In this document: positions 9,643 to 45,568 of the stretch, piece after piece | Layout: every line of letters begins with the position of its first letter | How positions within the stretch are numbered: the first letter of the stretch is position 1 | Source: Candidatus Woesearchaeota archaeon B3_Woes | GTDB taxonomy: Archaea > Nanobdellota > Nanobdellia > Woesearchaeales > B3-WOES | Reading direction: 5' to 3' | Length of the DNA: 64,000 bases | Assembly (NCBI GenBank): GCA_005222965.1 | Contig: NJBG01000001.1 | Span: 1-64,000, forward strand | Translations under genes and position numbers: made by a program | Notes under the pieces: model-generated | What the model saw: only the letters and a program-made list of their open reading frames with translations | What the model was told of the DNA's origin: nothing | The model's database searches: none

Positions 9643-11469
9643 ATGGCAATTACACCTCAACACATAGCAATAGGAACCTTATTCCAAAATCAATTTACAT
9701 TCCAAGTTCCAAAATATCAGCGAAACTTTACATGGGATGAAAACGATTTATCAGACTTCTTCGATGATCTTGAAAAATGTTATCAAGTTAGAATAAATGA
9801 GAATACAAGACATCATTTTTTTGGTGGTGTTGTAAGTATTAAACAAGAAATTCCTGGCTCATCACGTCAGCTTTTTGATTTGGTTGATGGACAGCAACGT
9901 ATAGCCACATTTATTATTTTTATGTCTACTATAATTTCTATCACAGAAGAATTAGCTCAAGAAGCAGATGAACAAAATGATAATGAAAATAATAAGCTTG
10001 CAAAAGAACGTGTTAAAAAGTTAACAAGTTTATATATTAAATTTAAAGACGAAATTAATCGTAAAATCATTGAAATTGATCGCTTAGAATTATCTTTACC
10101 AGATGAACCATTTTTTAAAGACTTAATCAATAACAATTCCCCAACTCCAGAAAGAGATTCTCATAATAGATTAGAATACGCATATAAATTCATAAGTGAA
10201 AAATTAAAAAATATTTTAAATGAATTACAAGATATACCATCTAAATTAGATGCATTAGAAACGTTCCATCAAGTAATTTTACAAGATTGCACTATTATTC
10301 ATATTGTAACAGAATCAAAAGACGAAGCATATAGATTATTCCAAGTTCTAAATGATCGGGGAACATGTCTTACTGAAGGAGATCTTCTGAAAGCAAGAAC
10401 ATTGGAATTATTAGATCTTGAAATTCATAACGCAAAACAAGACGCAGTCTTACGTCGTTGGAATAAAATTATAGCAGACCACCCTGATCAAACAGAGAAA
10501 TTCTTAAGATGGTATTACTCTTCCGTTAAGGGAAAAAGACCTAGCAAAACAGATCTGTTTGACGATTTTTTAGATAATTTTTTCCCTCAACACAAAAAAG
10601 AAGTAGACCAAATTACTGGAGCAGACGCAACCGCAATATTGAATTCAGTTAATAACTTTGAAAAAGAAATAATAATTATGCGTAAATTAATTGAAGGAGA
10701 TTGGCCATATAGTAGCACCACTCAAACACCTTCATGGAATAAAGAAAGACTTAGACTGTTAATAGTAGATCTGAAACACACCCATTGTATCCCTTTTTTG
10801 TTAGCGGCCCGTAAATTAGATCACCATAAATTTTCAGAAATAGTTCATCTTGTAGAAAGATTCTTTTTTAGATATAAATTAATGTGTAATGCACACATCG
10901 GCCAATTAACTAAAATCTATTTTGAACAGTCACAACTTATCAGAGCAAACCCCAGCACATATGATATAAGTACACTTAGATCGGAATTAAATTCATTACA
11001 AAACTCAAAAGCACAAGATGAGTTATTTGTAACACAAATGTCCGCAGAATTAAATTACAATGTTAATAAAACCAATAAACCCCTTAAGTATTTTTTAATG
11101 ACTATTGAACATTATTTTAAATGGTATATTGAAGGATCTACAGGAGACCCTCAATGCGAAAACTTAACAAGGGTGTTTGATTTTGCTAATACAACAATTG
11201 AACATATATACCCTCAGAACGCAACAGGTAATGTAATTCAGGCACAACTAGAAGAATTAAAACATAATATAGGAAATCTATCATTTTTAGGAGAAGAGGA
11301 TAATAATACTGGCGCTAATGACACTTTTAATACAAAAAAATCAATCTTACAAACATCTTCTGTGTTAATGAACAATAAAATTGCAGAAAAGTCATCCTGG
11401 GATAAAAATGCAGTAGAGGAAAGAAGAGACTTGCTTTTAGATCTTGCTCTTAAAGTTTTTTCTGCTTAA
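9643..11469 (+). CDS. DUF262/DUF1524 nuclease (GmrSD/SspE-like)
   Basis: 608 residues. The N-terminal DUF262 (ParB/Srx-like NTPase) has VPKYQRNFTWDENDLSDFF at 23-41 and the nucleotide motif DLVDGQQRIATF at about 80-91. The C-terminal DUF1524 His-Me finger nuclease shows TTIEHIYPQN (about 520-530) and HNIGNLSFLGEEDN. Both domains look intact. Relatives include the modification-dependent enzymes GmrSD and BrxU, and SspE, which is stimulated by DNA phosphorothioation. It converges with an operon for a PAPS-reductase-like enzyme and a GHKL ATPase, which makes a joint defence role likely. No DNA methyltransferase is nearby. Confidence 0.88.
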   Translation: MAITPQHIAIGTLFQNQFTFQVPKYQRNFTWDENDLSDFFDDLEKCYQVRINENTRHHFFGGVVSIKQEIPGSSRQLFDLVDGQQRIATFIIFMSTIISITEELAQEADEQNDNENNKLAKERVKKLTSLYIKFKDEINRKIIEIDRLELSLPDEPFFKDLINNNSPTPERDSHNRLEYAYKFISEKLKNILNELQDIPSKLDALETFHQVILQDCTIIHIVTESKDEAYRLFQVLNDRGTCLTEGDLLKARTLELLDLEIHNAKQDAVLRRWNKIIADHPDQTEKFLRWYYSSVKGKRPSKTDLFDDFLDNFFPQHKKEVDQITGADATAILNSVNNFEKEIIIMRKLIEGDWPYSSTTQTPSWNKERLRLLIVDLKHTHCIPFLLAARKLDHHKFSEIVHLVERFFFRYKLMCNAHIGQLTKIYFEQSQLIRANPSTYDISTLRSELNSLQNSKAQDELFVTQMSAELNYNVNKTNKPLKYFLMTIEHYFKWYIEGSTGDPQCENLTRVFDFANTTIEHIYPQNATGNVIQAQLEELKHNIGNLSFLGEEDNNTGANDTFNTKKSILQTSSVLMNNKIAEKSSWDKNAVEERRDLLLDLALKVFSA

Positions 11470-11532
11470 AATGTTCTATATACCCTTCAGTTTCATTTCT
11501 TTTCCACACAAAGAACAAAAAAATAATTATTA

Positions 11533-13116
11533 CTAGATATCAAATTTAAGTTTAAATAACCTTTCAAGAACATCTTCTACAATAGCTTCATACGCTTCTA
11601 TTTGTTCGTCCGTTATACTTACACTAGCACGCCTATGAATAAGTTCACACCTAAGTTTATAATAATACTCTATTCTATTCCACATAGTTTTTGTTACCTT
11701 TTTATACTTTTTAACTTCTTTATGTACTTCTGTTCGATTATCAAAAAGGTCATTAATACGTCTTTGACTATATACTGTACCAGATTCGTAAACTAAAAAC
11801 TCCTTAAATGCAATTTCTATAGTGCTATCTAAAATAATAAGACATATCCTATTTTTTTGCTCAAGTTTCTGTGAGTATATCAAATCAGAAGCAACTCTCC
11901 CTTCATATAATCCTTTAGTCCAAGGTTTTTTTTCTGATATTTTTTTATTAATCTGATCTATACGAAGACCATATCTGGGTTTTGAGATGGGTAAGGGAGG
12001 AAGGTATGATTTTTTTTCTGTTATAAAATCATCAATTGGAACAAACTTTATTTTACCTTTTGTGTACTTCAAAACTTTTTGAGGCCACTCACCACTTAAT
12101 CTTCGGCAAAGGGAAGCATAATCTTTAACAACCTTCACTAAAAAAGTCTGAAGAGCCGAAAATATTATATGTTTTGTGTCAATTTCAGATTTACTGCTAT
12201 TCCATGGCATTGATTGTACTTCCCCTTTAAGAGACACAATTACTTTAACAAGGGAAATAGTATCATGAGGTTTACCAGCCAACCCCTTAGCAAAACCAAC
12301 ATCATAACTTTTTAAAGCTCTAGAAATCAAACGATTATTACAATAAAAATATACTCCATATTCCCCTCCTGAGGGGTTGAATTTACTAGAAAGTTTTGAT
12401 AGTCCTGCAATAATTTCAACTTCTACAGGTTTATATTCTGGAGTTTTTATTATTCCACAATATCTATGTGGGGGATATTTTGGAGGATATACCCACTTCT
12501 CAAAAATTAATGGTGACAGTTTTTCAGAATTAAGTTTTAGGGTTAATTTTTTATCATTTAAAAATTTGGCATAAGTAGCTTGAAGATGAGTTTCAAGAAT
12601 TAATAATTTTTTTTTTGTTATTGTGATTCTAAGCGCATGTAGTTTGATTATAGTGGTCCCTTCATCTATTTGGCTTTCTTTATACAAAGGCAATTTCCAA
12701 TTATCTTCTTCCTTAAGCCAGTCTTCATCAAATTCTAAACTAAATGTATTCTCTTTTTTATATCTAGAAATAATTTTTATATCTTGAGCCAGAGCCACAA
12801 CTGCTCTTTTGGTTCCAACACCAAAAATACCTATAATTTCATCAGTTTGTAAATTACTTGTTCTCCCAGGCCCAACCAATAAGTCTAGCTCTGTTTTTTT
12901 TACACCACCCGCATTATCTTTTATACATATAGTTTGTTGATCTTTATTTATATCTATATCAATTAACAAAGATTTTTTCTTTCCCTCTTTAACCCATATA
13001 TCCAAAGAATTATCAATAAGTTCACATATAGAACTGTTTAAATCATAATCTGCTATTATTGATAAAAATAGTCTTTTGGAAGGTATTGCTTCTATTGTAT
13101 CTATTTCTTTTTTCAT
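11533..13116 (-). CDS. GHKL ATPase with C-terminal HEPN-like domain
   Basis: 527 residues. The N-terminal part is a GyrB/Hsp90/MutL/MORC-type ATPase: N box SSICELIDNSLDIW (about 29-42), DNAGGV (about 68) and GIFGVGTKRAVVAL (about 95-108). A transducer-like region follows, with SMPWNSSKSEID near 310, the lysine-loop position. The last 110 residues are helical and contain RCELIHR, an R-x4-H motif as in HEPN RNases, within YYYKLRCELIHRRASVS. It starts 23 bases after the PAPS-reductase-like gene. I infer an ATP-driven sensor fused to an RNase effector. The HEPN call rests on one motif and helix pattern. Confidence 0.8.
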   Translation of the reverse strand: MKKEIDTIEAIPSKRLFLSIIADYDLNSSICELIDNSLDIWVKEGKKKSLLIDIDINKDQQTICIKDNAGGVKKTELDLLVGPGRTSNLQTDEIIGIFGVGTKRAVVALAQDIKIISRYKKENTFSLEFDEDWLKEEDNWKLPLYKESQIDEGTTIIKLHALRITITKKKLLILETHLQATYAKFLNDKKLTLKLNSEKLSPLIFEKWVYPPKYPPHRYCGIIKTPEYKPVEVEIIAGLSKLSSKFNPSGGEYGVYFYCNNRLISRALKSYDVGFAKGLAGKPHDTISLVKVIVSLKGEVQSMPWNSSKSEIDTKHIIFSALQTFLVKVVKDYASLCRRLSGEWPQKVLKYTKGKIKFVPIDDFITEKKSYLPPLPISKPRYGLRIDQINKKISEKKPWTKGLYEGRVASDLIYSQKLEQKNRICLIILDSTIEIAFKEFLVYESGTVYSQRRINDLFDNRTEVHKEVKKYKKVTKTMWNRIEYYYKLRCELIHRRASVSITDEQIEAYEAIVEDVLERLFKLKFDI

Positions 13117-13139
13117 ACATTTAGTAACTTATATGTTGT

Positions 13140-14144
13140 TTATTCAATCTTAACATTACATCTCTTACAAATCTTACCATAACCCCAGTGATTAGTAACG
13201 TTCTTCCATAGAACAGGATTTATTTGTTTAAGTTTGATAAAATTATTCTCTTCTGCTATATGAGAACCAAACCCACAACAATAACATCCATTTCTTTTTA
13301 GATTATATGGTTCATAATAAATATCAGCAAATCTAATTTTATGTTTTTTAGCATATTTGTGAACGTCTTTATCTGTAAAAAAGATTATAGGATGAACAAC
13401 TACTTGATCTTTTGTTTCATAAATACAACCTTTTCTTACCCAAACAACTCTTCTCATTTGGCTTTCTTCTGCCCTCACACCCATTATTGCTACTTTTTTC
13501 CCACTTTCTTCTTGCCATTTTTTCATAGGTTTTTTCTTAAGAAGAAGACAACATTTAGAACTAACTTTAATACCTCTATATGTCAAAAAATTTTTTAATT
13601 TCTCTCTATCTTCCATTTCTCCTTTATATCCTATTTTTCTTACATATCTTTCTATTTTTTTTATGTGCTTTGGAGGCAATTTACCACCATGCCTTGCTCT
13701 TTCAAAAAATTCTGCAATTTCTTTTGAATACAAAGGATAACCATATTTTTGCCATATCTCTTGAGGTTTAATATCAGGATAAACCATAGTAAGTTTTACA
13801 TCGTTCTCTTTACACCATTCTTCAGAAAAAGTGATACATTCATGATACTCAAGTCTTGTATTAGAAAAGACATGTTCTAATTTATAACCCATTGATAAAA
13901 CAATATGACTCAAAATTGTACTATCTTTTCCTCCTGAAAAACTAACATAACAATTTTCTTCACCATACTTATCTATTGCTGCTTTAATACGTCTTTTTGT
14001 TAACTTTACTTTATAATCTAGAGCATAATTCATCCTCTTATTTAAAAGACTGCCACGAAAACTTAGAAGTTCTTTTTGTGCTTTAGTTTTATTTGGATTG
14101 TTCCAACCAGTTGTTTTATCCGATATACTAAATCCCAAAACCAT
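13140..14144 (-). CDS. PAPS-reductase/DndC-like ATP pyrophosphatase
   Basis: 334 residues. The PP-loop CYVSFSGGKDSTILSHIVLS lies at about 65-84. Downstream are SSKCCLLLKKKPMKKW, GVRAEESQMRR and a Cys-rich end with RNGCYCCGFG and KICKRC that could hold an Fe-S cluster or zinc. The PP-loop family adenylates substrates; relatives include PAPS reductase, DndC and SspD (DNA phosphorothioation), and IbrA. No cysteine desulfurase or sulfate assimilation gene is nearby, so plain sulfate reduction is unlikely. First gene of an operon with the GHKL-HEPN gene, and next to a DUF262/DUF1524 nuclease. Confidence 0.85.
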   Translation of the reverse strand: MVLGFSISDKTTGWNNPNKTKAQKELLSFRGSLLNKRMNYALDYKVKLTKRRIKAAIDKYGEENCYVSFSGGKDSTILSHIVLSMGYKLEHVFSNTRLEYHECITFSEEWCKENDVKLTMVYPDIKPQEIWQKYGYPLYSKEIAEFFERARHGGKLPPKHIKKIERYVRKIGYKGEMEDREKLKNFLTYRGIKVSSKCCLLLKKKPMKKWQEESGKKVAIMGVRAEESQMRRVVWVRKGCIYETKDQVVVHPIIFFTDKDVHKYAKKHKIRFADIYYEPYNLKRNGCYCCGFGSHIAEENNFIKLKQINPVLWKNVTNHWGYGKICKRCNVKIE

Positions 14145-18642: not shown

Positions 18643-19299
18643 ATGACAAAAATAAGACACGGCATAGATGTACAAATTAAGAAAGATGCTATGAAGGGTA
18701 AACAAAGATTTCAAGTTATGTCAGGTAAAAATGAGATCTTTGTCTCAGACAGCCATTTCTATAATTCTGACAACTATAGTTTTGCTACAGTGAATGGCTC
18801 TGCAGAAACTTCATGGGAAGTTGATCCTAAAAAAAACAAGAGATATTTTATTCAACAACTATCAGCATTTTATAAAAGATTAGAAGAATATGATTTTGAA
18901 AAACTCACAGACAATGAAAAAGAGTTAGGAATCACAATCATAGGTGGAAAGAAAGTATATCTTCCTCTTTATGATTCTGAAAATAAAGAATTGAATTTAG
19001 AAGCAATATTATCTTATCATAGGCCAGTCAGGATTAATACCCCTTATGCAGATATTATTTTCGGAAACAATTCTATAATGTCCCTGCCAACAGAAAATCC
19101 AAGAATAGAAGTCCTGAGTCATAATGAGATTTCAGAAGCATTGTCTTATCTGATTTCTTTAACATCAAGGCATCATGTGACTCAAAACCACATTTCTTCA
19201 AGCTTAGAATATCCTGTGACTCAAAACCAGATTGAATCGGTTCTGAGAACAATTTATAGATTTAATCGCAGCCCATTGAAAAGAACACTAACTGGTTAA
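18643..19299 (+). CDS. Hypothetical protein, 218 aa
   Basis: A soluble protein without a recognised family. A short internal repeat is visible near the end: HHVTQNHISSSLEY and then YPVTQNQIESVL. The N-terminal half is strand-rich (RFQVMSGKNEIFVSD), the C-terminal third helical. TGAGGT near 18623 could serve as a ribosome site. It converges with the sigma-factor operon. Base composition is somewhat richer in GC than the core genes, which suggests transfer. Confidence 0.6.
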   Translation: MTKIRHGIDVQIKKDAMKGKQRFQVMSGKNEIFVSDSHFYNSDNYSFATVNGSAETSWEVDPKKNKRYFIQQLSAFYKRLEEYDFEKLTDNEKELGITIIGGKKVYLPLYDSENKELNLEAILSYHRPVRINTPYADIIFGNNSIMSLPTENPRIEVLSHNEISEALSYLISLTSRHHVTQNHISSSLEYPVTQNQIESVLRTIYRFNRSPLKRTLTG

Positions 19300-19317
19300 T
19301 CTAATAAAAATAAAACC

Positions 19318-19458
19318 TTAATTACTATCTCTTACAAAAGTTGTCTGGCCATCTTTGTATATGATTCCAACCACATCATCACCATATTTTTCTCTAATGG
19401 CCTTTTTAAGTTCTTCTTTTGAGATTACAAACTTCCATTTCTTAGATATTTCCTTGCC
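19318..19458 (-). other. Out-of-frame continuation of the sigma-factor gene
   Basis: An open frame of 46 codons after TAG at 19459-19461 reads KKWKFVISKEELKKAIREKY and then GDDVVGIIYKDGQTTFVRDSN before TAA. It has no start codon of its own before a late GTG, and overlaps the sigma gene end in another frame. The protein-like composition suggests it was once the C-terminal end of the sigma factor or a separate gene that lost its start. Confidence 0.5.
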
Positions 19459-20030
19459 CTATGCACTCTTGATTTGACTGTTCCAAGAGGAATATCCATT
19501 ATATCTGCTATTGTCTGGTATTTCAGCCCCTGCAGGCTTCTAAGCACATAGGCTGTACTAAGTGCCCGGTTTTCATCAAAAAACCCAATCAGTCTCTGCA
19601 TAGCAGAATCAACTTTTGCACTTAATTCCAATTCCATTGTCAGATTTCCGCCATAAAGAACATCATCAACTGAAAAATCATTTCTTATATCTTCCCACAT
19701 ACCATCAAGAGAACAAGTCTTTCTTCTTTTAAGATTTCTGAGCTCTGTTTTTGCAAGGTTTGCTGCAATTGTGAAAAGCCATGTACCGAATTCAGCTGTT
19801 TGTTCATTATAAAGTTGCGCACGGGTATAGAGCTTAGTAAATGTCTGCTGAACAATATCACCTACTTCAACAGCCCCTTTAAATCCATTCTCGAAACGGA
19901 AAATAAAACCAGTAAGCCTTGGCTCATACCTATGATATAGTTCTGAATAAGCTCTTTCATCCCCTTCTTTAAAAGCAGCAATCAATACCTTATCAGGCAT
20001 CTCAACATAAACTTCACCATTATGTTTCAT
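19425..20030 (-). CDS. ECF-type sigma factor (sigma-70 family)
   Basis: 201 residues. Region 2 is at about 13-85: DKVLIAAFKEGDERAYSELY, VEVGDIVQQTFTKLY and FGTWLFTIAANLAKTEL, the core-binding and -10 reading helices. Region 4 is at about 140-195: LQGLKYQTIADIMDIPLGTV then KSRVHRARKYL, the -35 helix-turn-helix. No anti-sigma gene is near. Archaeal polymerase uses TBP/TFB, not sigma, so the role is unclear; it may act as a plain DNA-binding protein. Higher GC than the core genes suggests transfer from bacteria. It follows the MutS-like gene by 74 bases. Confidence 0.9.
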   Translation of the reverse strand: MKHNGEVYVEMPDKVLIAAFKEGDERAYSELYHRYEPRLTGFIFRFENGFKGAVEVGDIVQQTFTKLYTRAQLYNEQTAEFGTWLFTIAANLAKTELRNLKRRKTCSLDGMWEDIRNDFSVDDVLYGGNLTMELELSAKVDSAMQRLIGFFDENRALSTAYVLRSLQGLKYQTIADIMDIPLGTVKSRVHRARKYLRNGSL

Positions 20031-20104
20031 TTTTATCGTAATTTTAAATTAATTTATAAATTTATGTAAAGAAAATTAAACATAGTCGTTTTAGGTAATA
20101 ACTT

Positions 20105-21748
20105 TTAATTTTTATATTGATCAAGCTGTTGTTCTAATAAATGCATCCTGTCTTCTGGAATTTCATTATCCTTGATTAGTCTTTGTAATCTATTTAATCT
20201 GTTTTCTTTAATAGCTTTACTTACTCTTTTAAGAGGATAATCAAGGACAACTGTTTCTTCAGTTGGAGAAAAAATACCAGGAATTATCCTGTAAGTATAT
20301 TTTCCATCGACAACCTCTGTTGTTAGATTAATAATTTGAGGGAATTTATTTGCCAGTTCAGTTAATTCCAGATGGTGAGTAACCATCCAAGTTTCATATC
20401 CTGCCTTTCTTGCAATCTCTTCTAAGTATAATCTGGCTTGAAGAATTGCTTTTAAGTCATATGTCCCGGATGTAGGTTCGTCAAGAATCAGAAGACTCCT
20501 TGATCTTGCTTTTTCTATAATCTTAAAAGTAGTATCATTGATTTTTTGATATGTGCTTTTTCCTGAAAACGAATCTTCTGTCTGTCCGATGTTTGCAAGT
20601 ATTTGGCCTACATAACTTAGCTCAGCATTGTCTGCTATTACTGGCAATCCTGCCTGTGCAAATGCCTGGATAACGGCTCTTGTTTTGATTAACATTGTTT
20701 TTCCATAAGCATTCTCACCTGTTATCAATCTTATTGGCTCTAGTTCATCAATGAAAAAATCATTTGGAACTTTTTCTTTATCTCTATTTTCTCCCATGTA
20801 AAGGATAAAATTTACACCGCCTTTGATATTACAGTGCCTGTAGCCACCGCTCCTGAATTCAGGAAACGTTAAGTTTGCGCCCTTTTCCTGCAATTCTTTG
20901 AAACCTATTGCATAGCCAATAAAATAATCCAAGGCAGTAACAAGCTTGTTTACGCCTGAGACTTTCATAGCATAGAATAAGTCAACATATTTTATCAGAT
21001 TTGTATCTCTGCCTGCTCTTTTATCACGCTCATATTCTTGTTTGGTTTTGTTACGAAGTTCATCAAGTAATCTTGAAGAATCTATGACTCCTATATCTTC
21101 TTCTATGTCAATATTTCCTAACTCCTTGTACCATTCAGTTGATTTTATGCTCTCAGCCAATACACCACAATCTTGAAAGTGTGTGCCTTTTGTAATAGAA
21201 GCAATCTTTTCCAATACATGCAATTGTTGTTGAAGTAGTTCACCCATTCTATTTATTTCAAAGGGGTTGAAAAACAATTTATAAGGATAATCTCCCCCCT
21301 CATACCAACATTCTACTTCATTAATATCTCTGCTATTTTGATAATATTGATTAAACAATGAGCCTATCTCATCTAAATCTTTATTTTCCATCAAAAACTT
21401 TAGGGTTTTTTGTCTTTCTTTTCTTAATTCAGGCTCAAAAGCCATATCTGCAATAATTTCAATAGCCCGCTCATCTGTTTCTTTTTCCTTGAATGAAAAA
21501 AGATTTCCAACAATTCTATCAATATGGAGAGGTTTAATAAATAAATCATATTTATCACTATATCCCTGGAAATTAGGAAAACCATCTCTTTCCAGATGCA
21601 CTAACCTGTCTAAACTATATTCTGATGGCTTTTGAGGTTTTTCCGATTCTGTAAATTGCTCCCAATCACATTCAATCTCTTCCAAAACTTTTTCCAGTTC
21701 CATATCATCTAATCCTTCCTGTATTGGATCACTTTTATGTCTAGCCAT
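20105..21748 (-). CDS. MutS-like ATPase without mismatch-binding domain
   Basis: 547 residues. The C-terminal ATPase resembles MutS domain V: LITGENAYGKTMLIKTRAVI (Walker A, about 338-357), DNAELSYVGQI, SGKSTYQKIN (signature), LLILDEPTSGTYD (Walker B) and VTHHLEL (His switch). The N-terminal 300 residues are helical, like the core/lever of MutS; the mismatch-reading domain I is absent. Similar orphan MutS relatives are bacterial. Probably one transcript with the sigma factor. Function unknown; it may sense or remodel DNA or act on ribosomes as MutS2-like proteins do. Confidence 0.82.
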   Translation of the reverse strand: MARHKSDPIQEGLDDMELEKVLEEIECDWEQFTESEKPQKPSEYSLDRLVHLERDGFPNFQGYSDKYDLFIKPLHIDRIVGNLFSFKEKETDERAIEIIADMAFEPELRKERQKTLKFLMENKDLDEIGSLFNQYYQNSRDINEVECWYEGGDYPYKLFFNPFEINRMGELLQQQLHVLEKIASITKGTHFQDCGVLAESIKSTEWYKELGNIDIEEDIGVIDSSRLLDELRNKTKQEYERDKRAGRDTNLIKYVDLFYAMKVSGVNKLVTALDYFIGYAIGFKELQEKGANLTFPEFRSGGYRHCNIKGGVNFILYMGENRDKEKVPNDFFIDELEPIRLITGENAYGKTMLIKTRAVIQAFAQAGLPVIADNAELSYVGQILANIGQTEDSFSGKSTYQKINDTTFKIIEKARSRSLLILDEPTSGTYDLKAILQARLYLEEIARKAGYETWMVTHHLELTELANKFPQIINLTTEVVDGKYTYRIIPGIFSPTEETVVLDYPLKRVSKAIKENRLNRLQRLIKDNEIPEDRMHLLEQQLDQYKN

Positions 21749-21849
21749 TCTCTAAAGAAAATTTAGTATATTTATAAATCTTCCTATATTCTTAATCCCA
21801 AAGTAGTAACAATAGAAAGATTTTTAAAGAATATATTATTTCATAGCAT

Positions 21850-22521
21850 ATGTCAACTCATTTTTTAGGAATAGAGACTATACCAGAGACAATATATGAT
21901 GGTATTTCTCTAGATACTGTTGTATTAGAACAGGAAATGCAGACAAATAACGGAGGAGTTGACATAGCAGATCCATACCAAAATTATGTTATACAGGAAG
22001 ATTTTTTAAGACAATTTGTACCTCATTTTTTTACTGATGAATCAAATCCTGACTGTAGCGAAAACCTTGCAATAGCAAATAAATATCCAGATATAACAAG
22101 TCCTTGTTCAATCTTAGTTGATTCAGTTCAGGATGTACAAGATATTATGGCAATAGGCTATCAAGTTGCACATTTCAATTATATTCTAGGGAAAAAACAC
22201 AATCAAGAACCATTCCTTTGTTTTGATTCAAATAAGAATGTAGAGGAAAACAAATGGCATCATTTTGCTGTTGTTGTTTCACCTAATGGAAACACAGGGT
22301 ATCTAAATGGAGTAGAAATCACAAACAGACGCTATAATTTTGGTAATTCAAAAGACTCTTCTTTTCTAAAAGACATTTCAGGAAAAACAAAACTAATGCT
22401 TGGATACGGAAGAAGCTCTTATATGCTCTCTCCTGATTTTATATACTTTAAAGGAGCTCTTGATGATGTAAGAATTTATGATAAGCCACTAACTACTTCT
22501 GAGATAAAAGAATTAATATAA
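21850..22521 (+). CDS. LamG/concanavalin A-like domain protein
   Basis: 223 residues. The second half is a LamG jelly roll: NKWHHFAVVVSPNGNTGYLN, then KLMLGYGRSS and FKGALDDVRIYDKPLTTSEI at the end, all standard for LamG. The first half is unrecognised. No signal peptide is visible at this start, although such domains usually act outside the cell on glycans or proteins. TATA-like sequence lies about 25 bases before the ATG. Confidence 0.8.
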   Translation: MSTHFLGIETIPETIYDGISLDTVVLEQEMQTNNGGVDIADPYQNYVIQEDFLRQFVPHFFTDESNPDCSENLAIANKYPDITSPCSILVDSVQDVQDIMAIGYQVAHFNYILGKKHNQEPFLCFDSNKNVEENKWHHFAVVVSPNGNTGYLNGVEITNRRYNFGNSKDSSFLKDISGKTKLMLGYGRSSYMLSPDFIYFKGALDDVRIYDKPLTTSEIKELI

Positions 22522-22557
22522 AAATATTTATATAAATCCAAATTTTCCAAATCCAAT

Positions 22558-22920
22558 ATGGATATAAAACAACCAAGTATTAAACTAGAAGACAGAGTTT
22601 TAAGTAGACATGAGAGATTTGAAAATTGGCTTTTAAAGAGATACAAAACCATAACTGTAGTTACCTGTGGTGTAGGAATATTTGCTTGCACATTTAGTGC
22701 TTATAATTTAGGAACAGCTGTTCATTATCTTGTTAAAGAGGATGATCCTAGAGCATCAGTATCAGAAAATTCTGCTTTTAAAGAAGATTTCCACAACTCA
22801 TTTGATTATTTTCAAAAAGGGTTCTTTATAGCGTGCGGTAGTTTGTTTCTATCCACCTTAGCTTATTATGAGGGAAGGAGGATAGCAAGAGAAAGAGAAG
22901 AAGAATCAAATTCTTACTAA
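22558..22920 (+). CDS. Two-helix membrane protein, 120 aa
   Basis: Hydrophobic segments at about 32-55 (ITVVTCGVGIFACTFSAYN) and 88-104 (GFFIACGSLFLSTLAYY). Basic N-terminal part (RVLSRHERFENWLLKRYK) and a charged C-terminal tail (RRIAREREEE) place both ends in the cytoplasm. Family not recognised. It follows the LamG gene by 36 bases. Confidence 0.65.
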   Translation: MDIKQPSIKLEDRVLSRHERFENWLLKRYKTITVVTCGVGIFACTFSAYNLGTAVHYLVKEDDPRASVSENSAFKEDFHNSFDYFQKGFFIACGSLFLSTLAYYEGRRIAREREEESNSY

Positions 22921-22947
22921 ATAATTAAAAAAAGAAAAAAATGTTTT

Positions 22948-23160
22948 TTATTTGCTAAACATCTTTTTGCAAAGTGGGGCCGCGAAAACTAAACCTAAAA
23001 CTAAAAACCATCCCCAGTGGACTCCTAAAACAAAATCTCTAAATCCGGCCCAGACAGTTACCAAAAACAGTGTAAAGAAAAACACAGATCCTTTTAGCAG
23101 TGATATATCATACCACTTCATCTTTTTAATTAATTTTTCTACCCATTTAACAAAACACAT
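22948..23160 (-). CDS. Two-helix small membrane protein, 70 aa
   Basis: Amphipathic, basic start (KWVEKLIKKMKWYDISLLKG) followed by two helices (SVFFFTLFLVTVWAGF and WGWFLVLGLVFAAPL) and a Cys-Lys-Lys end. AAAGGAGG lies before the ATG as a strong ribosome site. Similar Trp-rich small membrane proteins occur in DPANN archaea; the role is unknown. Confidence 0.7.
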   Translation of the reverse strand: MCFVKWVEKLIKKMKWYDISLLKGSVFFFTLFLVTVWAGFRDFVLGVHWGWFLVLGLVFAAPLCKKMFSK

Positions 23161-23271
23161 TTTTACACCTCCTTTAATTTTCTTTTTACTTCCATTGCTT
23201 AACCTATACTCATAACATGAAGAATTACTATTTTTTAAACTTTTTGTTTTATTGCTATCTTGTTAATAAAA

Positions 23272-24243
23272 TTACCTAAGAAATATATTTGTTGAGTGTC
23301 TGCGATGATACATAGAATCATCATCTGTAGCATCTTTATTCTCTTTAATAAACTCTATGAATTCAGAAGTTCTTGAACTTAATTGATCAGCAAAATACAA
23401 CACAACAGCTTCAGCAAACATTGGTTTTTTTGGAGAACCATACTCTAATTCACCATGATGGCTCACAATCAAATGCAATAATTTCTCTTTTAACAAATCA
23501 TCTACAGAACTATCCTTTAATTTATCAGCAACATGAATAACACCTAAAGTTAAATGACCTATAAACTGACCTTTACGAGTACCTTTTATACGAGAAGTAG
23601 TCTCAATCTCCTCTAATTTGCCAATATCATGCAACAAAGTGCCTGATATCAACAAATCTCTATCCAGTTCAGGAAACAACCTGCAGCTTGTTTCACAATA
23701 TTCAACAATCTCCAAAGTATGCTGTAATAATCCCCCACGCCAGTTATGATGTATCTGAATAGCTCCAGGATGCTGCTTAAACTTATCTCCTAAAGAATTA
23801 AAAACATCTAATAAAAGTTTCTTCAAATCTTCATTCTTAATAGAATCTATTTTTGACATTAGACCAGAATACATCTCATCTATATCTTTCTGAGGACCAG
23901 CAATAAAATCACCTTCATACTCATCCTGATTAAGAACCCTTATATTATTAGGGTCACTATTTCCAATCTGTAATTTATTCTGGTAACTCGAAACCTTTCC
24001 TTTAACCAAGACAACCGAATCAGGTGCTATAAGATTGTAAATTGCCTTTACTTTATCCTGATCAAAATCACCCCAATACTTGTACTCTATACTTCCTCCT
24101 GAAGAATCAGAAAGAATTAAAGTAAAGAAATGCCCTTTAGAATACTCGCTAATGCTTCTCTTAATCTTTACAACAAAGATATCATTAACTATATCTCCTT
24201 CTTTTAATTCCTTAATCTGTTGTTTTTTTGTAAATTTTTCCAT
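23272..24243 (-). CDS. OB-fold plus HD-domain nuclease (YhaM-like)
   Basis: 323 residues from ATG 24243. The N-terminal OB-fold (about 1-95: GDIVNDIFVVKIKRS, VVLVKGKVSSYQNKLQIG) is followed by an HD domain (about 125-300) with HHNWRGGLLQHTLEIVEYC, LLHDIGKLEE and IVSHHGELEYGSP, the metal ligands. This is the architecture of YhaM 3'-5' exoribonuclease. A GTG at 24351 extends the frame upstream, but the extra 36 residues are not part of the domain. It follows the OB-like exported gene by more than 120 bases. Confidence 0.85.
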   Translation of the reverse strand: MEKFTKKQQIKELKEGDIVNDIFVVKIKRSISEYSKGHFFTLILSDSSGGSIEYKYWGDFDQDKVKAIYNLIAPDSVVLVKGKVSSYQNKLQIGNSDPNNIRVLNQDEYEGDFIAGPQKDIDEMYSGLMSKIDSIKNEDLKKLLLDVFNSLGDKFKQHPGAIQIHHNWRGGLLQHTLEIVEYCETSCRLFPELDRDLLISGTLLHDIGKLEEIETTSRIKGTRKGQFIGHLTLGVIHVADKLKDSSVDDLLKEKLLHLIVSHHGELEYGSPKKPMFAEAVVLYFADQLSSRTSEFIEFIKENKDATDDDSMYHRRHSTNIFLR

Positions 24244-24365
24244 ATTAAACCCTAATTCTTTAAATTCTTTTAAGAATTGTTGTTCTAAGGTATATAATAC
24301 GTAGTGGTCTATGTGGGGGCTGTCAACAAAAAAGAATAGATTCAATAGCACAAGCTTAATTCTTT

Positions 24366-38116: not shown

Positions 38117-38356
38117 ATGACAAAATTCAAAATTGAAGAACACATTCTTGTTCCAAAACACTCAAAACTTAATGATAAAGAGAAGAAAAATCTTCTTGAA
38201 AAATACAATATAACTCTAAAAGAACTTCCTAGGATTCTAAAAAAAGATCCTGCTATAAGCCCTTTATCTCCTAAAATAGGGGACGTAATAAAAATAATAA
38301 GAAAAAGTCCAACAGCTGGCGAGGCTATTTTCTATAGGTATGTTGTAAATGGATGA
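38117..38356 (+). CDS. rpoH: RNA polymerase subunit H (Rpo5)
   Basis: 79 residues. EEHILVPKHSKLNDKEKKNL and ELPRILKKDPAISPLSPKIG match archaeal Rpo5, the small subunit like the C-terminal half of Rpb5. GEAIFYRYVV ends the protein as usual. It heads the rpo operon and follows tRNA-Lys by 12 bases. It overlaps rpoB'' by 8 bases. Confidence 0.96.
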   Translation: MTKFKIEEHILVPKHSKLNDKEKKNLLEKYNITLKELPRILKKDPAISPLSPKIGDVIKIIRKSPTAGEAIFYRYVVNG

Positions 38357-39836
38357 TCAAACAAAAACTATCATAAAAAAGTTCTTTGAGGAACAGAGTT
38401 TTGTAGATTCTGATATTTCTAGTTTCAATAATTTTGTAGAGAAAAAACTTCAGGAAATTATTGACGAGAACAGAATCATAGAACCAACAATTATCCCTCA
38501 AAATGTAAATGATTTTAAAATTACTTTAGATAAAATTGAAGTTCATAAACCAGAAATTATTGAAGCAGATGGAAGTAGAAGAGCAATCTATCCTATTGAA
38601 GCGAGATTAAGAAAAATAAGTTATTCTGGTCCTGTTTTTATTGAAATAAGTTCTCATATAAACGGAGTGCAGCGTGAAACATTCAAAACACAGATATGCA
38701 ATTTACCTATAATGATTAAAAGTAAACTATGTCATCTAAACAACTTAAATAGAGATGAATTAATTGAAAAAGGAGAAGATCCAGACGACCCAGGAGGATA
38801 TTTCATAATAAATGGAACTGAAAGAGTTGTTGTTAATGTAGAAGATTTGGCCGCAAACAATTTCTTAGTTGAAAAAGCATCAATTGGTCCTTCACCTTTT
38901 ATAGGAAAACTCTTTTCAGAACACGGCTCATTTAAGATTCCTCATACAATAGAAAGATTAAATGATGGTATTATCTATCTTTCATTTACAAGAGTAAAAA
39001 GAATACCAATACTAATCATCATAAAAGCATTAGGTTTGTTAAAAGATGAAGATATTATGCATTTTGTTTCAAGCGAAAAGCAATATGATGATGTTCTAAT
39101 AAACCTTTATGAATTTGTTGATATAAAAATAGAAGAAGAAGCAGTAGATTGGATTGCAAAAAAAATAGGAATTACACAATCAAAAGAGATAAGATTAGAG
39201 AGAATGTATGAAATTCTTGATAAGTATCTTTTAACACACGTCGGAACAAAAAAAGAAGACAGAATTCTAAAAGCATACAATCTTTGTAAGATGATTAAAA
39301 AATACATAAGGGTTGCAAATGGAGAACAAAACATAGACGATAAAGATCATTATATTAATAAAAGACTAAGAGCAAGCGGAGATCTTCTAGCTGATCTTTT
39401 CATGGTTAATCTAAAGGTTCTCATTAGCGATGTTCTATACAATTTCCAGAGAATCGTTAAAAGAGGAAAATTCCCAAGTATAAAGGTAATCATAAGAGGA
39501 AAATTACTAACATCAAGAATAAGCAGCTCAATGGCTACAGGTAACTGGGTTGGTGGTAGAAAAGGAGTAAGTCAAAGAATATCCAGAATAAACTTTATTG
39601 ATAGTCTTTCTCATTTACAAAGAGTTGTTAGTCCTTTATCCGCCACACAAGAAAATTTCCAAGCAAGAGAACTACATCCAACTCATTTAGGAAGATTATG
39701 TCCAATAGAGACGCCAGAAGGAACGAATATTGGATTAAGAAAAAATTTGTCTTTATTAGCATCCCTTTCAAAAGAATCAAACGATGAAGAAACAGTAAAA
39801 GTATTCCAAAACCTTGGATTAAAGGAGATTAAATAA
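38349..39836 (+). CDS. rpoB2: RNA polymerase subunit B''
   Basis: 495 residues, the N-terminal half of the beta-type subunit. GGYFIINGTERVVVNVEDLA near 150, RGKFPSIKVIIRGKLLTSRI near 380, and near the end HPTHLGRLCPIETPEGTNIG, part of the fork/active-site region. Ends about where the B''/B' split lies in other split archaea. Stop overlaps the rpoB' start by one base (TAATG). Confidence 0.97.
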   Translation: MDDQTKTIIKKFFEEQSFVDSDISSFNNFVEKKLQEIIDENRIIEPTIIPQNVNDFKITLDKIEVHKPEIIEADGSRRAIYPIEARLRKISYSGPVFIEISSHINGVQRETFKTQICNLPIMIKSKLCHLNNLNRDELIEKGEDPDDPGGYFIINGTERVVVNVEDLAANNFLVEKASIGPSPFIGKLFSEHGSFKIPHTIERLNDGIIYLSFTRVKRIPILIIIKALGLLKDEDIMHFVSSEKQYDDVLINLYEFVDIKIEEEAVDWIAKKIGITQSKEIRLERMYEILDKYLLTHVGTKKEDRILKAYNLCKMIKKYIRVANGEQNIDDKDHYINKRLRASGDLLADLFMVNLKVLISDVLYNFQRIVKRGKFPSIKVIIRGKLLTSRISSSMATGNWVGGRKGVSQRISRINFIDSLSHLQRVVSPLSATQENFQARELHPTHLGRLCPIETPEGTNIGLRKNLSLLASLSKESNDEETVKVFQNLGLKEIK

Positions 39837-41638
39837 TGTCAGACTTTTATTTTAACGGAAGATTTTTAGGAAATCTGGAAGAACCAGAAGAATTTGTAAA
39901 ACAAGTAGTAAATGAAAGAAGAAAAGGAGTAATTGATAATGGAGTTAATATCTACCTTGATGAAAAAACAAAAGATGTTTTTACTAACTCTACTTCAGGT
40001 AGAGTAAGAAGACCATTAATTGTTATTAAAGAAGGTAAACCTTTGTTAACAGATAATCATGTAAAACAACTTGAAAAAAACGAACTCACATGGAACGATC
40101 TAATTGATCAGGGTGTTATTGAATATCTTGATGCAGCTGAAGAAGAAAACTGTTTAGTTTCTTTTTCTGAAAAAGAATTAACACCAGAACACACCCATTT
40201 GGAAATAAGTCCATTAGCGATGCTTGGTTATTGTACAAGCTTAGTTCCTTTTGGTAATTTTACACAACCAGCTAGGCTTATGATTGGGAGCAAAAACCAG
40301 AAACAAGCCCTTGGACTATATGTAGCAAATTTCCCATTAAAGATGGATATGGATGTAAATATCCTTAATACACCACAAAGACCTATTGTTCAATCTGTAA
40401 TGCACGATCTATCTAAATATGACAGTCATCCAGCAGGACAAAACATTATTGTTGCTATCATGAGTTATAAAGGATATAATATGGATGATGCTATAATTCT
40501 TAATAAAGGTTCAATAGAAAGAGGAGTTGGAAGAAGCACATACTTCAGAATAAACTCTACAGTAGAATTAAGATATAGTGGAGGATTAGTTGATGAAGTA
40601 AGTGTTCCTGATAAAGATGTTAAAGGTTATAAAAGCGAAAAAGATTATAGATTCCTGGAAGAGGATGGAATTATTTATCCAGAAGCACAAGTTCAGGAAG
40701 AAGATGTAATAATTGGAAAAACCTCTCCTCCAAGATTCTTATCAGGGTTAGATGAATATAATTTAGCATCATCTACAAAAAGAGAAAGTTCTGTTGCAAT
40801 GCAGCATGGTGAACACGGAATAATTGATTATGTATTACTAACTGAGAATGAAGAAGGAAATAAACTTGTCCAGGTTAGATTAAGAAAGGGGAAGGTTCCT
40901 GAACTAGGGGATAAATTTACTTCAAGACACGGACAAAAAGGTGTTGTTGGATTAATTGTTCCTCAGACAGACATGCCCTTTAGTGCATCTGGTATTGTTC
41001 CTGATTTAATATTTTCACCTCATGGAATTCCATCAAGAATGACAATAAGCCATATGTTAGAATTAATCGCAGGTAAAATAGGAGCACTATCTGGAAGATA
41101 TGTTGATGCTACTTGTTTTAGCGCTGAAAAAGAAGAAGACCTAAGAAAAGAATTAATGGGTTTAGGATTCAGAGAAAATGGAGTAGAAACATTATATAAT
41201 GGAATGACAGGAGAACAATTTGAATCAAAAATATTCATAGGAAGTATGTACTATCTAAAATTAAGACATATGGTAAGCAACAAGATGCATGCTCGTGCAC
41301 GTGGACCTATCCAGTTATTAACAAGACAACCTACAGAAGGACGGGCAAAAGAAGGAGGTCTAAGATTAGGAGAGATGGAGAAAGATACTTTCGTAGCTCA
41401 TGGAACTTCTTTATTACTAAAAGAAAGATTTGATTCAGATAAAACAGTCGTTCCTGTATGTGAAAGTTGTGGTATAATAGCAGTATATGATGAATATAAG
41501 AATAAAAGTTATTGTCCTATCTGTGGTGATGCAACTGAGATAAATAATATAGAGTTAAGTTACGCTTTCAAACTTTTATTAGATGAATTAAAATCGCTTT
41601 GTATATATCCAAAATTAAATTTAGAAAATAAATACTAA
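39836..41638 (+). CDS. rpoB1: RNA polymerase subunit B'
   Basis: 600 residues, the C-terminal half of the beta-type subunit. AIMSYKGYNMDDAIILNKGS (about 205), KFTSRHGQKGVVGLI (about 360), TRQPTEGRAKEGGLRLGEME (about 500) and a zinc site CESC ... CPIC near 543-566. Part of the catalytic core with A'. It is followed by the palindrome array at 41641-41744. Confidence 0.97.
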   Translation: MSDFYFNGRFLGNLEEPEEFVKQVVNERRKGVIDNGVNIYLDEKTKDVFTNSTSGRVRRPLIVIKEGKPLLTDNHVKQLEKNELTWNDLIDQGVIEYLDAAEEENCLVSFSEKELTPEHTHLEISPLAMLGYCTSLVPFGNFTQPARLMIGSKNQKQALGLYVANFPLKMDMDVNILNTPQRPIVQSVMHDLSKYDSHPAGQNIIVAIMSYKGYNMDDAIILNKGSIERGVGRSTYFRINSTVELRYSGGLVDEVSVPDKDVKGYKSEKDYRFLEEDGIIYPEAQVQEEDVIIGKTSPPRFLSGLDEYNLASSTKRESSVAMQHGEHGIIDYVLLTENEEGNKLVQVRLRKGKVPELGDKFTSRHGQKGVVGLIVPQTDMPFSASGIVPDLIFSPHGIPSRMTISHMLELIAGKIGALSGRYVDATCFSAEKEEDLRKELMGLGFRENGVETLYNGMTGEQFESKIFIGSMYYLKLRHMVSNKMHARARGPIQLLTRQPTEGRAKEGGLRLGEMEKDTFVAHGTSLLLKERFDSDKTVVPVCESCGIIAVYDEYKNKSYCPICGDATEINNIELSYAFKLLLDELKSLCIYPKLNLENKY

Positions 41639-41640
41639 AA

Positions 41641-41744
41641 ACCATGAAAATCAAAGATTTTCAGGGTGCAACAAAATCAAAAGATTTTGTGCACAAGAAA
41701 AGCGAAGCTTTTCTTTGTGCCAAAAATCCGGAGGATTTTTAAGC
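41641..41744 (+). repeat. Array of four palindromic elements between rpoB' and rpoA'
   Basis: Stems: GAAAATC/GATTTTC (41646-41662), CAAAATC/GATTTTG (41672-41689), AGAAAAGC/GCTTTTCT (41696-41714), AAAAATCC/GGATTTTT (41722-41740), with loops of 3-4 bases. Outer stems, set off by a one-base bulge, also pair: GTGCA/TGCAC for the second, GCACA/TGTGC for the third. The array fills the whole spacer. Related elements lie in and after argS. Confidence 0.9.
41644..41742 (+). CDS. Possible 32-aa ORF made of the palindromic array
   Basis: ATG 41644 to TAA 41740-41742 reads MKIKDFQGATKSKDFVHKKS, then EAFLCAKNPEDF. Each palindrome gives a K-x-K-D/E-F-like unit. The stop is 2 bases before the rpoA' start. 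It may be translated between the two subunits, or only reflect that the elements keep frames open. No known family. Confidence 0.3.
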   Translation: MKIKDFQGATKSKDFVHKKSEAFLCAKNPEDF

Positions 41745-44474
41745 ATGGCTAAAAAAGAAACAAAGGAAAAGGAAGTCAAAGAACCTGTTGAAGAAAAAGC
41801 AGAAGAAGTTGTTGAACCCATAGAAGAGACCAAAGAGGTTCCAGAAGTAGAAGATCTTCCAGAAGAAAAGGGTTCTAAAGAACCTGTTGAAGAAAAAAAG
41901 ATCGATTTTGAATCCCACCAACATGTTCATAAACAAATTAGGAGTATTGAATTTGGTACTCTGAGTCCTGAATTAATAAAAAAGATGGCTTCTGCTAAGA
42001 TAGTCACACCTGAATTATATGATAGAGAAGGATATCCTGTTGATGGTGGACTAATGGATATAAGATTAGGAGTAATTGATCCTGGATTAAAATGTAAGAC
42101 ATGTGGAAGTAAATTAAAAGAATGTATTGGACATTTTGGTTATATAGAGTTAGCAAGACCAATAATCCACATAAAATTTGTTAGTATAATATTAAATATC
42201 CTTAAATCAACTTGTAGAGATTGTGGACGTGTTCTAATTCCTAAAACTAAGATTGCTAAATGTTTAGATGAATTAAAAGAAGCCGAAAAAGAAAGCGGAT
42301 TAGCTGGAAGAAGGAAGAAAATAAGACAGATCATAACAAATCTTAAATCTCAAAACAAATGCCCTTATTGTCAAGTTAAACAACAAAAAATAAATCTTGA
42401 AAAACCATCAACATTTATTGAAAACGAAAAAAGAATAAGCCCAATAGAAGTTAGAACAAGACTTGAAAAAGTTACAGATGATGATTTATCTTTATTCGGG
42501 ATAAATGCAAAAGTAGCAAGACCTGAATGGATGGTATTAACTATAATGGCAATACCACCGGTAACAATGAGACCTTCTATAACTCTAGAATCTGGAGAAA
42601 GAAGCGAAGATGATCTAACACATAAAATAGGAGATATCGTAAGAATAAATCAAAGATTATTTGAAAATATAAATGCAGGAGCTCCTGAAATAATTATTGA
42701 AGATTTGTGGGATTTATTACAATACCATGTTACAACTTTCTTTGATAATGCTGTTGCTCAACTGCCACCAGCAAGGCATCGTTCAGGACAGCCTCTTAAA
42801 ACAATAACAGAAAGAATAAAAAGCAAACAAGGAAGAATAAGGCAAAATTTAGCTGGAAAAAGAACAAATTTTTCTTCCAGAACAGTTATTAGTCCTGATC
42901 CTAATCTACAATTAAACGAGGTTGGAGTACCTATGGAAATTGCTACAATCCTAACAGTACCAGAAAGAGTCACTGAATGGAATATAGAATATCTTAAGGG
43001 ATTTATTAAAAGAGGATCTCATGTTTACCCTGGAGCAAATTATGTTATAAGACCTGGTGGAAAAAAGAAAAGAATAACAGAAGAGACAAAGGAGGCAAGC
43101 CTAGAAGAGATTGAACAAGGTTATATTGTTGAAAGACACCTATTAGATGGGGATGTTGCAATCTTCAACAGACAACCATCTCTTCATAGAATGTCTATGA
43201 TGTGTCACAAAGTAAGAATCTTAGCTGGTAAAACATTTAGATTAAGCCCAGCAGTATGTAATCCTTATAACGCTGATTTTGATGGGGACGAAATGAACCT
43301 GCATATTCCTCAAACAGAAGAAGCGAGAGCAGAAGCAGAAATTTTGATGCAGGTTCAAACTCAACTAATTTCTCCAAGATATGGTCTTAGTGTAATGGGA
43401 TGTAAACAAGATGCCATTAGTGGTAATTATATCCTAACCACAAATAATTTCAAAATGAAAAGAGATGATGCTGTTGATTTATTATATAACCTTGGTATAA
43501 ATAATTTCTCAAAATTACCTAAGAAAAAAGAAGTTAGTGGTCAGGAAGTATTTAGTACACTCTTACCTGATGATTTTGATTTCAAAGGAACAGATAGGAC
43601 AGGTAAACCTGTGATAATTAAAAATGGTGTACTTAATGAGGGTTGTGTAATTGATAAAAATGCTGTTGGAGAAGAAGCAGGACTTATTCTAAGAGCATTA
43701 CACAAAAAATATGGTGCAGATGACGCTGTAATTATTATCAGTAATATATTTAGATTGGGAATTGGTGTTTTATTAAAAAATGGATTTTCAATCACATTGT
43801 CAGATACAGATTTACCTAAGAACGCAAGAGAGGAAGTCGATGAAATATTCACAAATGTGAAGCAAGATGTTCAAAATTTAATTAATTCTTATTATAAAGG
43901 AGAATTAGAAGTATTCCCTGGAAAAACAGCATCTGAAACACTAGAACTAAGAATTTTAGAGTTATTAAATAAAGAGAGAAATAAAGTAGGACAGGTTGTT
44001 ATGGATTATTGTCATAAAGGAACATCTTCAATTATAATGGCTGATAGTGGGGCTAGGGGAAATTCATTAAATTTAGCACAGATGGCAGCTTGTGTTGGTC
44101 AGCAGGCTATGCGTGGTCAAAGAATTACTAAAGGTTATAACAAAAGGACTTTGTCTTCTTTCAAAAAAGGAGATTTAGGTTCTGAATCTCATGGATTTAT
44201 CCAAAATGGGTTCAAACAAGGATTAAATCCTTTTGAATTCTTCTTTGGATCAATAACAGGTCGTGACAGTCTTATGGATACTGCTTTAAGAACACCTAAG
44301 TCTGGTTATCTCTATAGAAGATTATCCAACGCTTTGCAGGACCTAAAAGTAGAGTATGATCATACAGTAAGAGACGCAAGCAAAAAGATTATTCAATTTA
44401 AATATGGTGAAGATGGTGTTGATGTAAGTAAATCAGAAGAAGGAGTAATAAATGTTGATAGAGTTATAAAATGA
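41745..44474 (+). CDS. rpoA1: RNA polymerase subunit A'
   Basis: 910 residues from ATG 41745. Zinc sites [20 protein letters not shown] and CRDCG/CPYC, bridge and active site [20 protein letters not shown] (three catalytic Asp), [19 protein letters not shown]. The N-terminal 57 residues are a Glu/Lys/Val/Pro-rich extension not found in usual RpoA'. Start chosen at [10 protein letters not shown] after GGAGG. Stop overlaps rpoA'' by 4 bases. Confidence 0.97.
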
Positions 44475-45568
44475 GAGACGAAATAGAGTTAACACCCAAA
44501 CTGAAAAAGGAGCTAAAAGAAAAGAAAGCTAGTGAAGCTAACATTAAAAAGGTTGCACAGGAATACAAAGAAGCGCTTATTTCTCCTGGAGAATCTGTTG
44601 GAATCATCTCTGCTGAATCAATTGGAGAACCAGGTACACAGATGACATTAAACACTTTCCACTTTGCTGGTGTTGCAGAAATGAACGTTACAATGGGTTT
44701 GCCAAGAATAATAGAAATCCTTGATGGAAGAAAAACAATTGCTACACCAATGATGGAAATCTATCTTAATAAACCCCATAATAAAGGTAAAAATATTATG
44801 CAGATTGCAGCATCTATAAAAGAAACAATGCTTAATGAAGTTGCCTCAGAATTTTCCATTAATATTGTCGATTTCACAATAGAAATAAAATTAGATAGAG
44901 AAAAAATGAGGGAAATAGGCATAAATATTACAACTGTCGCAAATGCTATCTCTAAATCTATTAAAAAAATAAAAGTTAAACAAAAAGAAGATAACATTGT
45001 TATAAAAATAAAAGAAAAAGAGGAAAATCTGAATGAAATTTATAAACTCAAAGAAAAACTAAAAACAGTTTTCATAAAAGGTATAAAAAACATCAAACAG
45101 GTTTTGCCAGTAAAAAGAAAAGAAGAATTCATAATTATAACAGCTGGATCAAATATCAAAGAGATCCTTGACTTAGATTTTGTTGACAAATCAAGAACAA
45201 TAACAAATGATCTTTATGAAACAGAAAAAGTACTAGGCATTGAAGCTACAAGACAATTAATAATATCAGAAGTCTATAAAGTTATTGAAAGCCAGGGTCT
45301 TAATGTTGATATAAGACATATTATGCTTGTTGCAGATACAATGTGCAATAATGGAACAATAGAAGGAGTTACAAGATATGGTGTTGTGAGTAGAAAATCT
45401 TCTGTTTTAGCAAGGGCTTCTTTTGAAACACCCCTAAACCATATAATTGACTCATCCTTAGTTGGAGATATAGATCTATTAACTTCTGTAGTTGAAAACG
45501 TTATGCTTAATCAACCAGTTCCAGTAGGTACTGGATTGCCTGATTTGATAACAAAGGTGAAAAAATGA
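44471..45568 (+). CDS. rpoA2: RNA polymerase subunit A''
   Basis: 365 residues, the C-terminal part of the beta'-type subunit. Trigger-loop segment [20 protein letters not shown] near 57-76, [13 protein letters not shown], and [20 protein letters not shown] near the end. Translation is coupled on both sides through ATGA overlaps (rpoA' and eL30). Confidence 0.97.

Follow-up and report, generated by a model that had tools for sequence, protein, structure and literature searches.

A complete ECF-type sigma factor gene on the main chromosome of a woesearchaeal archaeon with an archaeal RNA polymerase

Sigma factors count as a hallmark of bacterial transcription, and their common occurrence in archaea whose sole polymerase is archaeal has been recorded and is unexplained. 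The locus described here poses this question for a single gene: what can a complete ECF sigma factor do in a cell whose own RNA polymerase is archaeal, and how was its gene acquired? The window analyzed spans positions 1 to 64,000 of a 1,000,545-bp contig of Candidatus Woesearchaeota archaeon B3_Woes, order Woesearchaeales, the genome of which comprises 1.02 Mb and is 96% complete and 0.5% contaminated. The kind of gene is not new, as sigma-70 genes in this archaeal group are already on record. Castelle et al. (2021, PMC8204110) reported them in DPANN archaea, chiefly Woesearchaeota, in a passage that reports finding no anti-sigma factor and leaves their function open. The surprise expressed in a previous sequence-only reading of the window is lowered accordingly, both by this publication and by the frequency of sigma-70 genes in the order.

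The sigma factor gene and its archaeal surroundings

The minus-strand open reading frame, which runs from the ATG at 20030 to the stop codon ending at 19425, encodes a protein of 201 residues (Table 1). Both of its Pfam matches, to Sigma70_r2 (PF04542, 6.3e-12) and Sigma70_r4_2 (PF08281, 1.1e-11), lie above the gathering cut-offs, and it passes the NCBIfam sigma70-ECF model (TIGR02937, 66.5 with a cut-off of 42.9); none of the specific ECF subtype models among those shown by NCBIfam passed its cut-off. Regions 1.1, 1.2, and 3 are absent according to Pfam, leaving regions 2 and 4 alone, which is the layout of ECF (group 4) sigma factors. The best PDB match in phmmer is E. coli sigmaE (9e-21, residues 9–197), with AlgU also among the nearest solved structures. 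The AlphaFold model, predicted with 31 aligned relatives, has a mean pLDDT of 85.6, and its top-ranked folds are exclusively ECF sigma factors. Sigma2 of the model matches 4lup, the structure of region 2 of E. coli sigmaE bound to the −10 element, to 1.4 Å over 91 residues (Z 15.3); the large root mean square deviation over the whole length is, on our reading of the model, probably explained by a flexible linker. Short inserts precede region 2.2 and region 4. Among the residues facing the beta' coiled coil, D58, Q61, and F64 are retained and Q62 replaces the usual E or D, with D58 and Q61 located at the positions of sigma70 D403 and Q406 and Q62 at that of E407. This is the only sigma region 2 match in the genome. 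The Pfam domains, the ECF model, and the sigmaE fold match thus agree with the earlier claim that regions 2 and 4 are both intact, and the coordinates first given for the frame are exact, with only the strand to be supplied.

Table 1. Coordinates of features in the 64-kb window
Feature	Position	Strand	Evidence or remark
218-aa open reading frame, convergent, no known family	18643..19299	+	atypical codon usage; absent from 60 relatives
ECF sigma factor gene	19425..20030	-	Pfam, NCBIfam, phmmer against PDB, AlphaFold, fold match
Sigma-70 region 4 type 2 (helix-turn-helix, −35 domain), C-terminal end GTVKSRVHRARKYLR	19443..19556	-	Pfam
Sigma-70 region 2 (core-binding and −10 domain)	19722..19940	-	Pfam; D58 and Q61 kept, Q62 at E407 position
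Archaeal TATA box TTTATAAA	20053..20060	-	starts 30 nt before sigma ATG
547-aa protein, MutS domain V ATPase, upstream of sigma gene	20105..21748	-	own TATA at 21771-21778
Archaeal RNA polymerase genes B'', B', A', A''	38349..45568	+	clamp coiled coil without bacterial sigma contacts, no flap-tip helix

Bacterial DNA joined to the archaeal genome by mis-assembly or contamination could account for such a gene, the composition of which does depart from that of the window, and the sequence-only reading had named a mis-assembled contig as the finding that would overturn it. This explanation is very unlikely. The gene lies inside the 1.0-Mb contig of a genome with low contamination, is preceded by an archaeal TATA box, and shares its contig with the archaeal RNA polymerase genes of the window (A', B', and B'' at 38–45.5 kb), with TFB at 123 kb, and with TBP at 485 kb, in agreement with the archaeal surroundings described earlier. 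The linkage of a sigma gene with archaeal A' on one contig recurs in four other genomes (G231:C5, G117:C1, G182:C2, and G222:C4), and the sigma gene of one relative adjoins that of archaeal ribosomal protein L11. Mis-binning of sigma-70 genes has also been excluded for the archaeal group in the passage by Castelle et al. (PMC8204110). It is confirmed that a complete bacterial-type sigma factor is carried on the main chromosome of the archaeon.

The gene stands out from the window in composition. Codon and GC statistics, computed window-wide, give it a GC content of 37.6% compared with 29.8% on average (sd 2.9%) in the 53 other genes, the highest of all 54, which bears out the earlier observation of a GC content above that of the core. 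Its GC3 is likewise the highest of the 54, and by codon usage it ranks among the two least typical, with those at 18643, 23272, and 20105 next in order. The interval 18643–24351 contains four of the five genes lowest in codon typicality, and the block from 18.6 to 24.4 kb looks foreign as a whole. The position of TTTATAAA, with its start at −30, is the modal TATA position among the window genes (p about 0.0025 against shuffled sequence) and suggests leaderless transcription of the sigma gene by TBP/TFB. The box is located within an overlapping AT-rich palindrome at 20043–20070.

The neighbors of the sigma gene are the MutS domain V ATPase and the open reading frame without a family, and no anti-sigma family match was found among the scanned genes. 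The ATPase lacks the mismatch-recognition domain. An operon of the two genes is unproven, each having a TATA box of its own. The only close relative of the ATPase (49%, on G278:C65) is apparently split there into two frames, with one ambiguous residue, and the 9 kb read around it hold no sigma gene. There is no tRNA insertion site near the sigma gene, the sole tRNA being at 38 kb. Other features of the region include a YhaM-like OB-HD 3'-5' exoribonuclease (23272–24351) of atypical codon usage and patchy occurrence in the order (9 of 60 relatives), and two pairs of direct repeats, 16427–16456/18347–18376 (97%) and 16775–16812/18538–18575 (87%), which occur in the same order about 1.8–1.9 kb apart, contain promoter-like sequence, and resemble intergenic DNA that was duplicated locally long ago. 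A defence-like cluster at 9643–14144 comprises a DUF262-type protein (PADLOC Orf5/HEC-06, 7e-227), an ATPase-like protein, and a PAPS-reductase-like protein, the last with a weak BrxP match.

Polymerase docking sites and the retained sigma surface

In E. coli, sigma2 docks on the beta' coiled coil, for which R275, E295, and A302 are needed, and sigma4 binds the flap-tip helix of beta; each of the substitutions R275Q, E295K, and A302D impairs holoenzyme formation, and the flap tip is commonly absent in archaea (PMC8321222). The clamp coiled coil is a site common to TFB, TFE, Spt4/5, and, in bacteria, sigma70 (PMC3223566). The A' clamp coiled coil encoded in the window has I, L, and H at the positions of R275, E295, and A302, and the B subunit (Rpo2) lacks the segment surrounding the flap tip, with no flap-tip helix remaining. 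The earlier statement that the archaeal polymerase lacks the usual sigma contacts is thus demonstrated for the subunits of this organism. The same I, L, and H recur in relatives within the order, 13 with a sigma gene and 13 without one, the sole exception being the sigma-free G022 with Y, V, and H. Because the coiled coil is alike in both sets of genomes, the polymerase of the order appears not to be adapted to sigma.

No bacterial RpoC is present in the genome, where TIGR02386 reaches only archaeal A' (293.7 bits against a cut-off of 963.5). The suggestion that an element brings its own polymerase finds no support here, as nothing nearby supplies a bacterial one either. Bacterial RpoC passes the cut-off in one of 336 genomes of the order; this complete RpoC (G232:C1:4763-8362), in a genome binned in the order with 4% contamination, is probably a contaminant. 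Since both sigma docking sites are lost and no bacterial RpoC is encoded, classical docking at home would not be possible, making a classical sigma holoenzyme with the home polymerase very unlikely. The absent partner polymerase argues against sigma function at home, not against descent from ECF sigma factors.

The paradox is concrete here: the polymerase half of the interface is missing and unchanged, whereas the sigma half is mostly retained, most clearly in the primary-type sigma factors of relatives. Across 25 primary-type sigma factors of the order, the RNA polymerase contacts are retained as D or E at D403 in 25 of 25, E407 in 21, and N409 in 22, and the promoter contacts as W434 and Q437 in 22 of 25 and R586 and Q589 in 23. 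An aspartate occupies the D403 position in all 22 other archaeal ECF sigma factors as well as in the window protein. The real puzzle is a sigma surface retained without a matching polymerase. It could reflect action on a bacterial polymerase elsewhere, use at home through a different surface, or repeated young gains.

The primary-type sigma factors in other genomes of the order include full-length proteins of 480–1740 aa with regions 1.2, 2, 3, and 4 and nearly canonical core-binding, −10, and −35 motifs, encoded in genomes with archaeal RNA polymerase only (L107, L108, L110–L113, and L117–L121). Tandem triplets of diverged genes for primary-type sigma factors of ~480 aa occur in two genomes of one genus (L114:2557-6991 and L115:86-4498). 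Giant proteins of 1370–1740 aa carry a C-terminal sigma factor (L107:1316-6538, L109:5699-10348, and L116:2464-6561), and the L109 protein has helix-turn-helix motifs together with three matches to region 2. In the giant proteins of L107 and L109, the N-terminal part for the most part matches no known family. In three genomes from different families a gene for 700–790 aa is located directly upstream of the primary-type sigma gene on the same strand (L112:7068-9446, L119:6380-8731, and L118:6582-8702), with a GHKL ATPase match in one copy.

Distribution and descent

Within the order, 140 of 352 genomes have a match to sigma-70 region 2, and the archaeal controls have none; the counts rest on region 2, as region 4 alone is unspecific and matches ordinary archaea too. 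The GC content of the sigma-70 genes of the order matches that of their loci. The protein search of 60 relatives gave five weak matches to the window ECF (24–39% identity), and no ortholog was found in the same family or among these relatives. The closest bacterial sequences found are 34–38% identical. Single-protein scans of genome and viral contigs revealed no close bacterial donor, two scans of viral contigs no close viral relative, and a two-row alignment scan, the sample of which is biased by the search patterns, returned chiefly RpoE genes of Gamma- and Betaproteobacteria (31–38%).

In a maximum-likelihood tree of 66 ECF sigma factors the window protein forms a lone long branch with no supported sister, and the archaeal members are polyphyletic, as well-supported branches require no fewer than four changes. 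Because archaeal ECF sigma factors fall in several groups of the tree and the window protein stands alone, the tree points to repeated transfers with no recent donor visible. The phylogeny with bacterial ECF groups suggested earlier assigns the window protein no supported place. The claim of a late transfer is half borne out: it is favored by the atypical composition, whereas the low identity of the closest sequences and the lack of a supported sister speak against it.

Possible roles and likeness to known systems

Our preferred reading, with a probability of about 40%, is that the gene was acquired laterally and, if it is retained at all, serves as a DNA-binding regulator. A young gain with a possible regulatory role is the most economical interpretation because the composition is foreign and no ortholog was found. 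A bacterial ECF sigma gene would have entered the DPANN archaeon by lateral transfer and now resides on the main chromosome, where the archaeal machinery probably transcribes it from an ordinary TATA promoter. It would have no classical promoter-specificity role at home. As a putative stand-alone regulator, it could bind a −35-like site through the sigma4 helix-turn-helix while sigma2 may grip an opened −10-like strand, and the bound protein could block or help TBP/TFB-dependent initiation at a few promoters. Several points count against a regulator. Without core polymerase, free ECF sigma factors generally bind DNA weakly, and the RNA polymerase-facing D58 and Q61 are kept, which would be superfluous in a pure DNA binder. 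No DNA target is known, and no ortholog was found in relatives. The sigmaE-type promoter GGAAC-N14-18-GTC has 0 matches in the window with 2.1 expected, a consensus that need not apply to this protein.

A passing bacterial sigma gene that arrived with foreign DNA, has no function yet, and will be lost is a possible but doubtful alternative. The atypical composition, the lack of an ortholog, with best matches of only 24–39%, the many independent gains implied by polyphyly, and the absence of an adjacent anti-sigma gene all fit such a passing state. However, the frame is full-length and undamaged, the archaeal TATA box is correctly placed, and sigma-70 genes in 140 of 352 genomes with GC content matching their loci indicate that such genes can be kept. 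It is unlikely that the archaeon makes the sigma factor to act on a bacterial polymerase, be it in a partner, prey, or host cell or through a cross-domain mobile element. The primary-type sigma factors of relatives keep polymerase and promoter contacts despite great divergence, the matching surface is lost from the home polymerase with no bacterial RpoC encoded, and D58 and Q61 are kept in the window protein, all of which would suit this role. However, there is no known export signal, link to secretion, or bacterial host, and the hosts of all cultivated DPANN archaea are archaea according to PMC11291902; repeated gains from bacteria may partly account for the conservation, and the window protein has Q in place of E407. 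A broader version, in which the order keeps both ECF and primary-type sigma factors, the window protein included, to redirect the RNA polymerase of a bacterial partner or prey cell, or to serve elements that they share with bacteria, seems slightly less likely still. Use with the archaeal polymerase in a non-classical manner, for example by rivalling TFE or Spt4/5 at the clamp coiled coil, is slightly less probable again. The coiled coil is indeed a common site for these factors and sigma70, and the sigma-facing residues are retained; against this, the contact residues of the archaeal coiled coil differ and are unchanged in sigma-bearing genomes, and there is no flap tip for sigma4.

A cognate anti-sigma or other control gene near ECF sigma genes is common, although not universal. 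Among known systems, fam00359 of Castelle et al. (PMC8204110) is likewise a sigma-70 family in DPANN archaea with archaeal TBP/TFB and no anti-sigma factor found; it is likened here by its description, one short passage that gives no ECF subtype, polymerase contacts, or function. The ECF-like sigma factors of phages (phrog_1740; crAss-like phages) have the same domain layout (profile match 3.9e-19, 26–33% identity), whereas the window gene has no phage structural module around it and no close viral relative. An identification with RpoE was rejected, as the equivalog cut-off was missed and the window protein falls outside the RpoE clade (support 100/98), though as a long branch. It differs from RpoE and SigW in its identity of at most 38%, in equivalog scores of 88.2 bits (cut-off 236.15) and 75 bits (cut-off 243), respectively, in its short inserts, and in having neither an adjacent anti-sigma gene nor a bacterial RNA polymerase in the cell. 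In length, sigma2-linker-sigma4 layout, fold, and key residues of regions 2 and 4, however, it is like RpoE/AlgU (E. coli sigmaE) and SigW.
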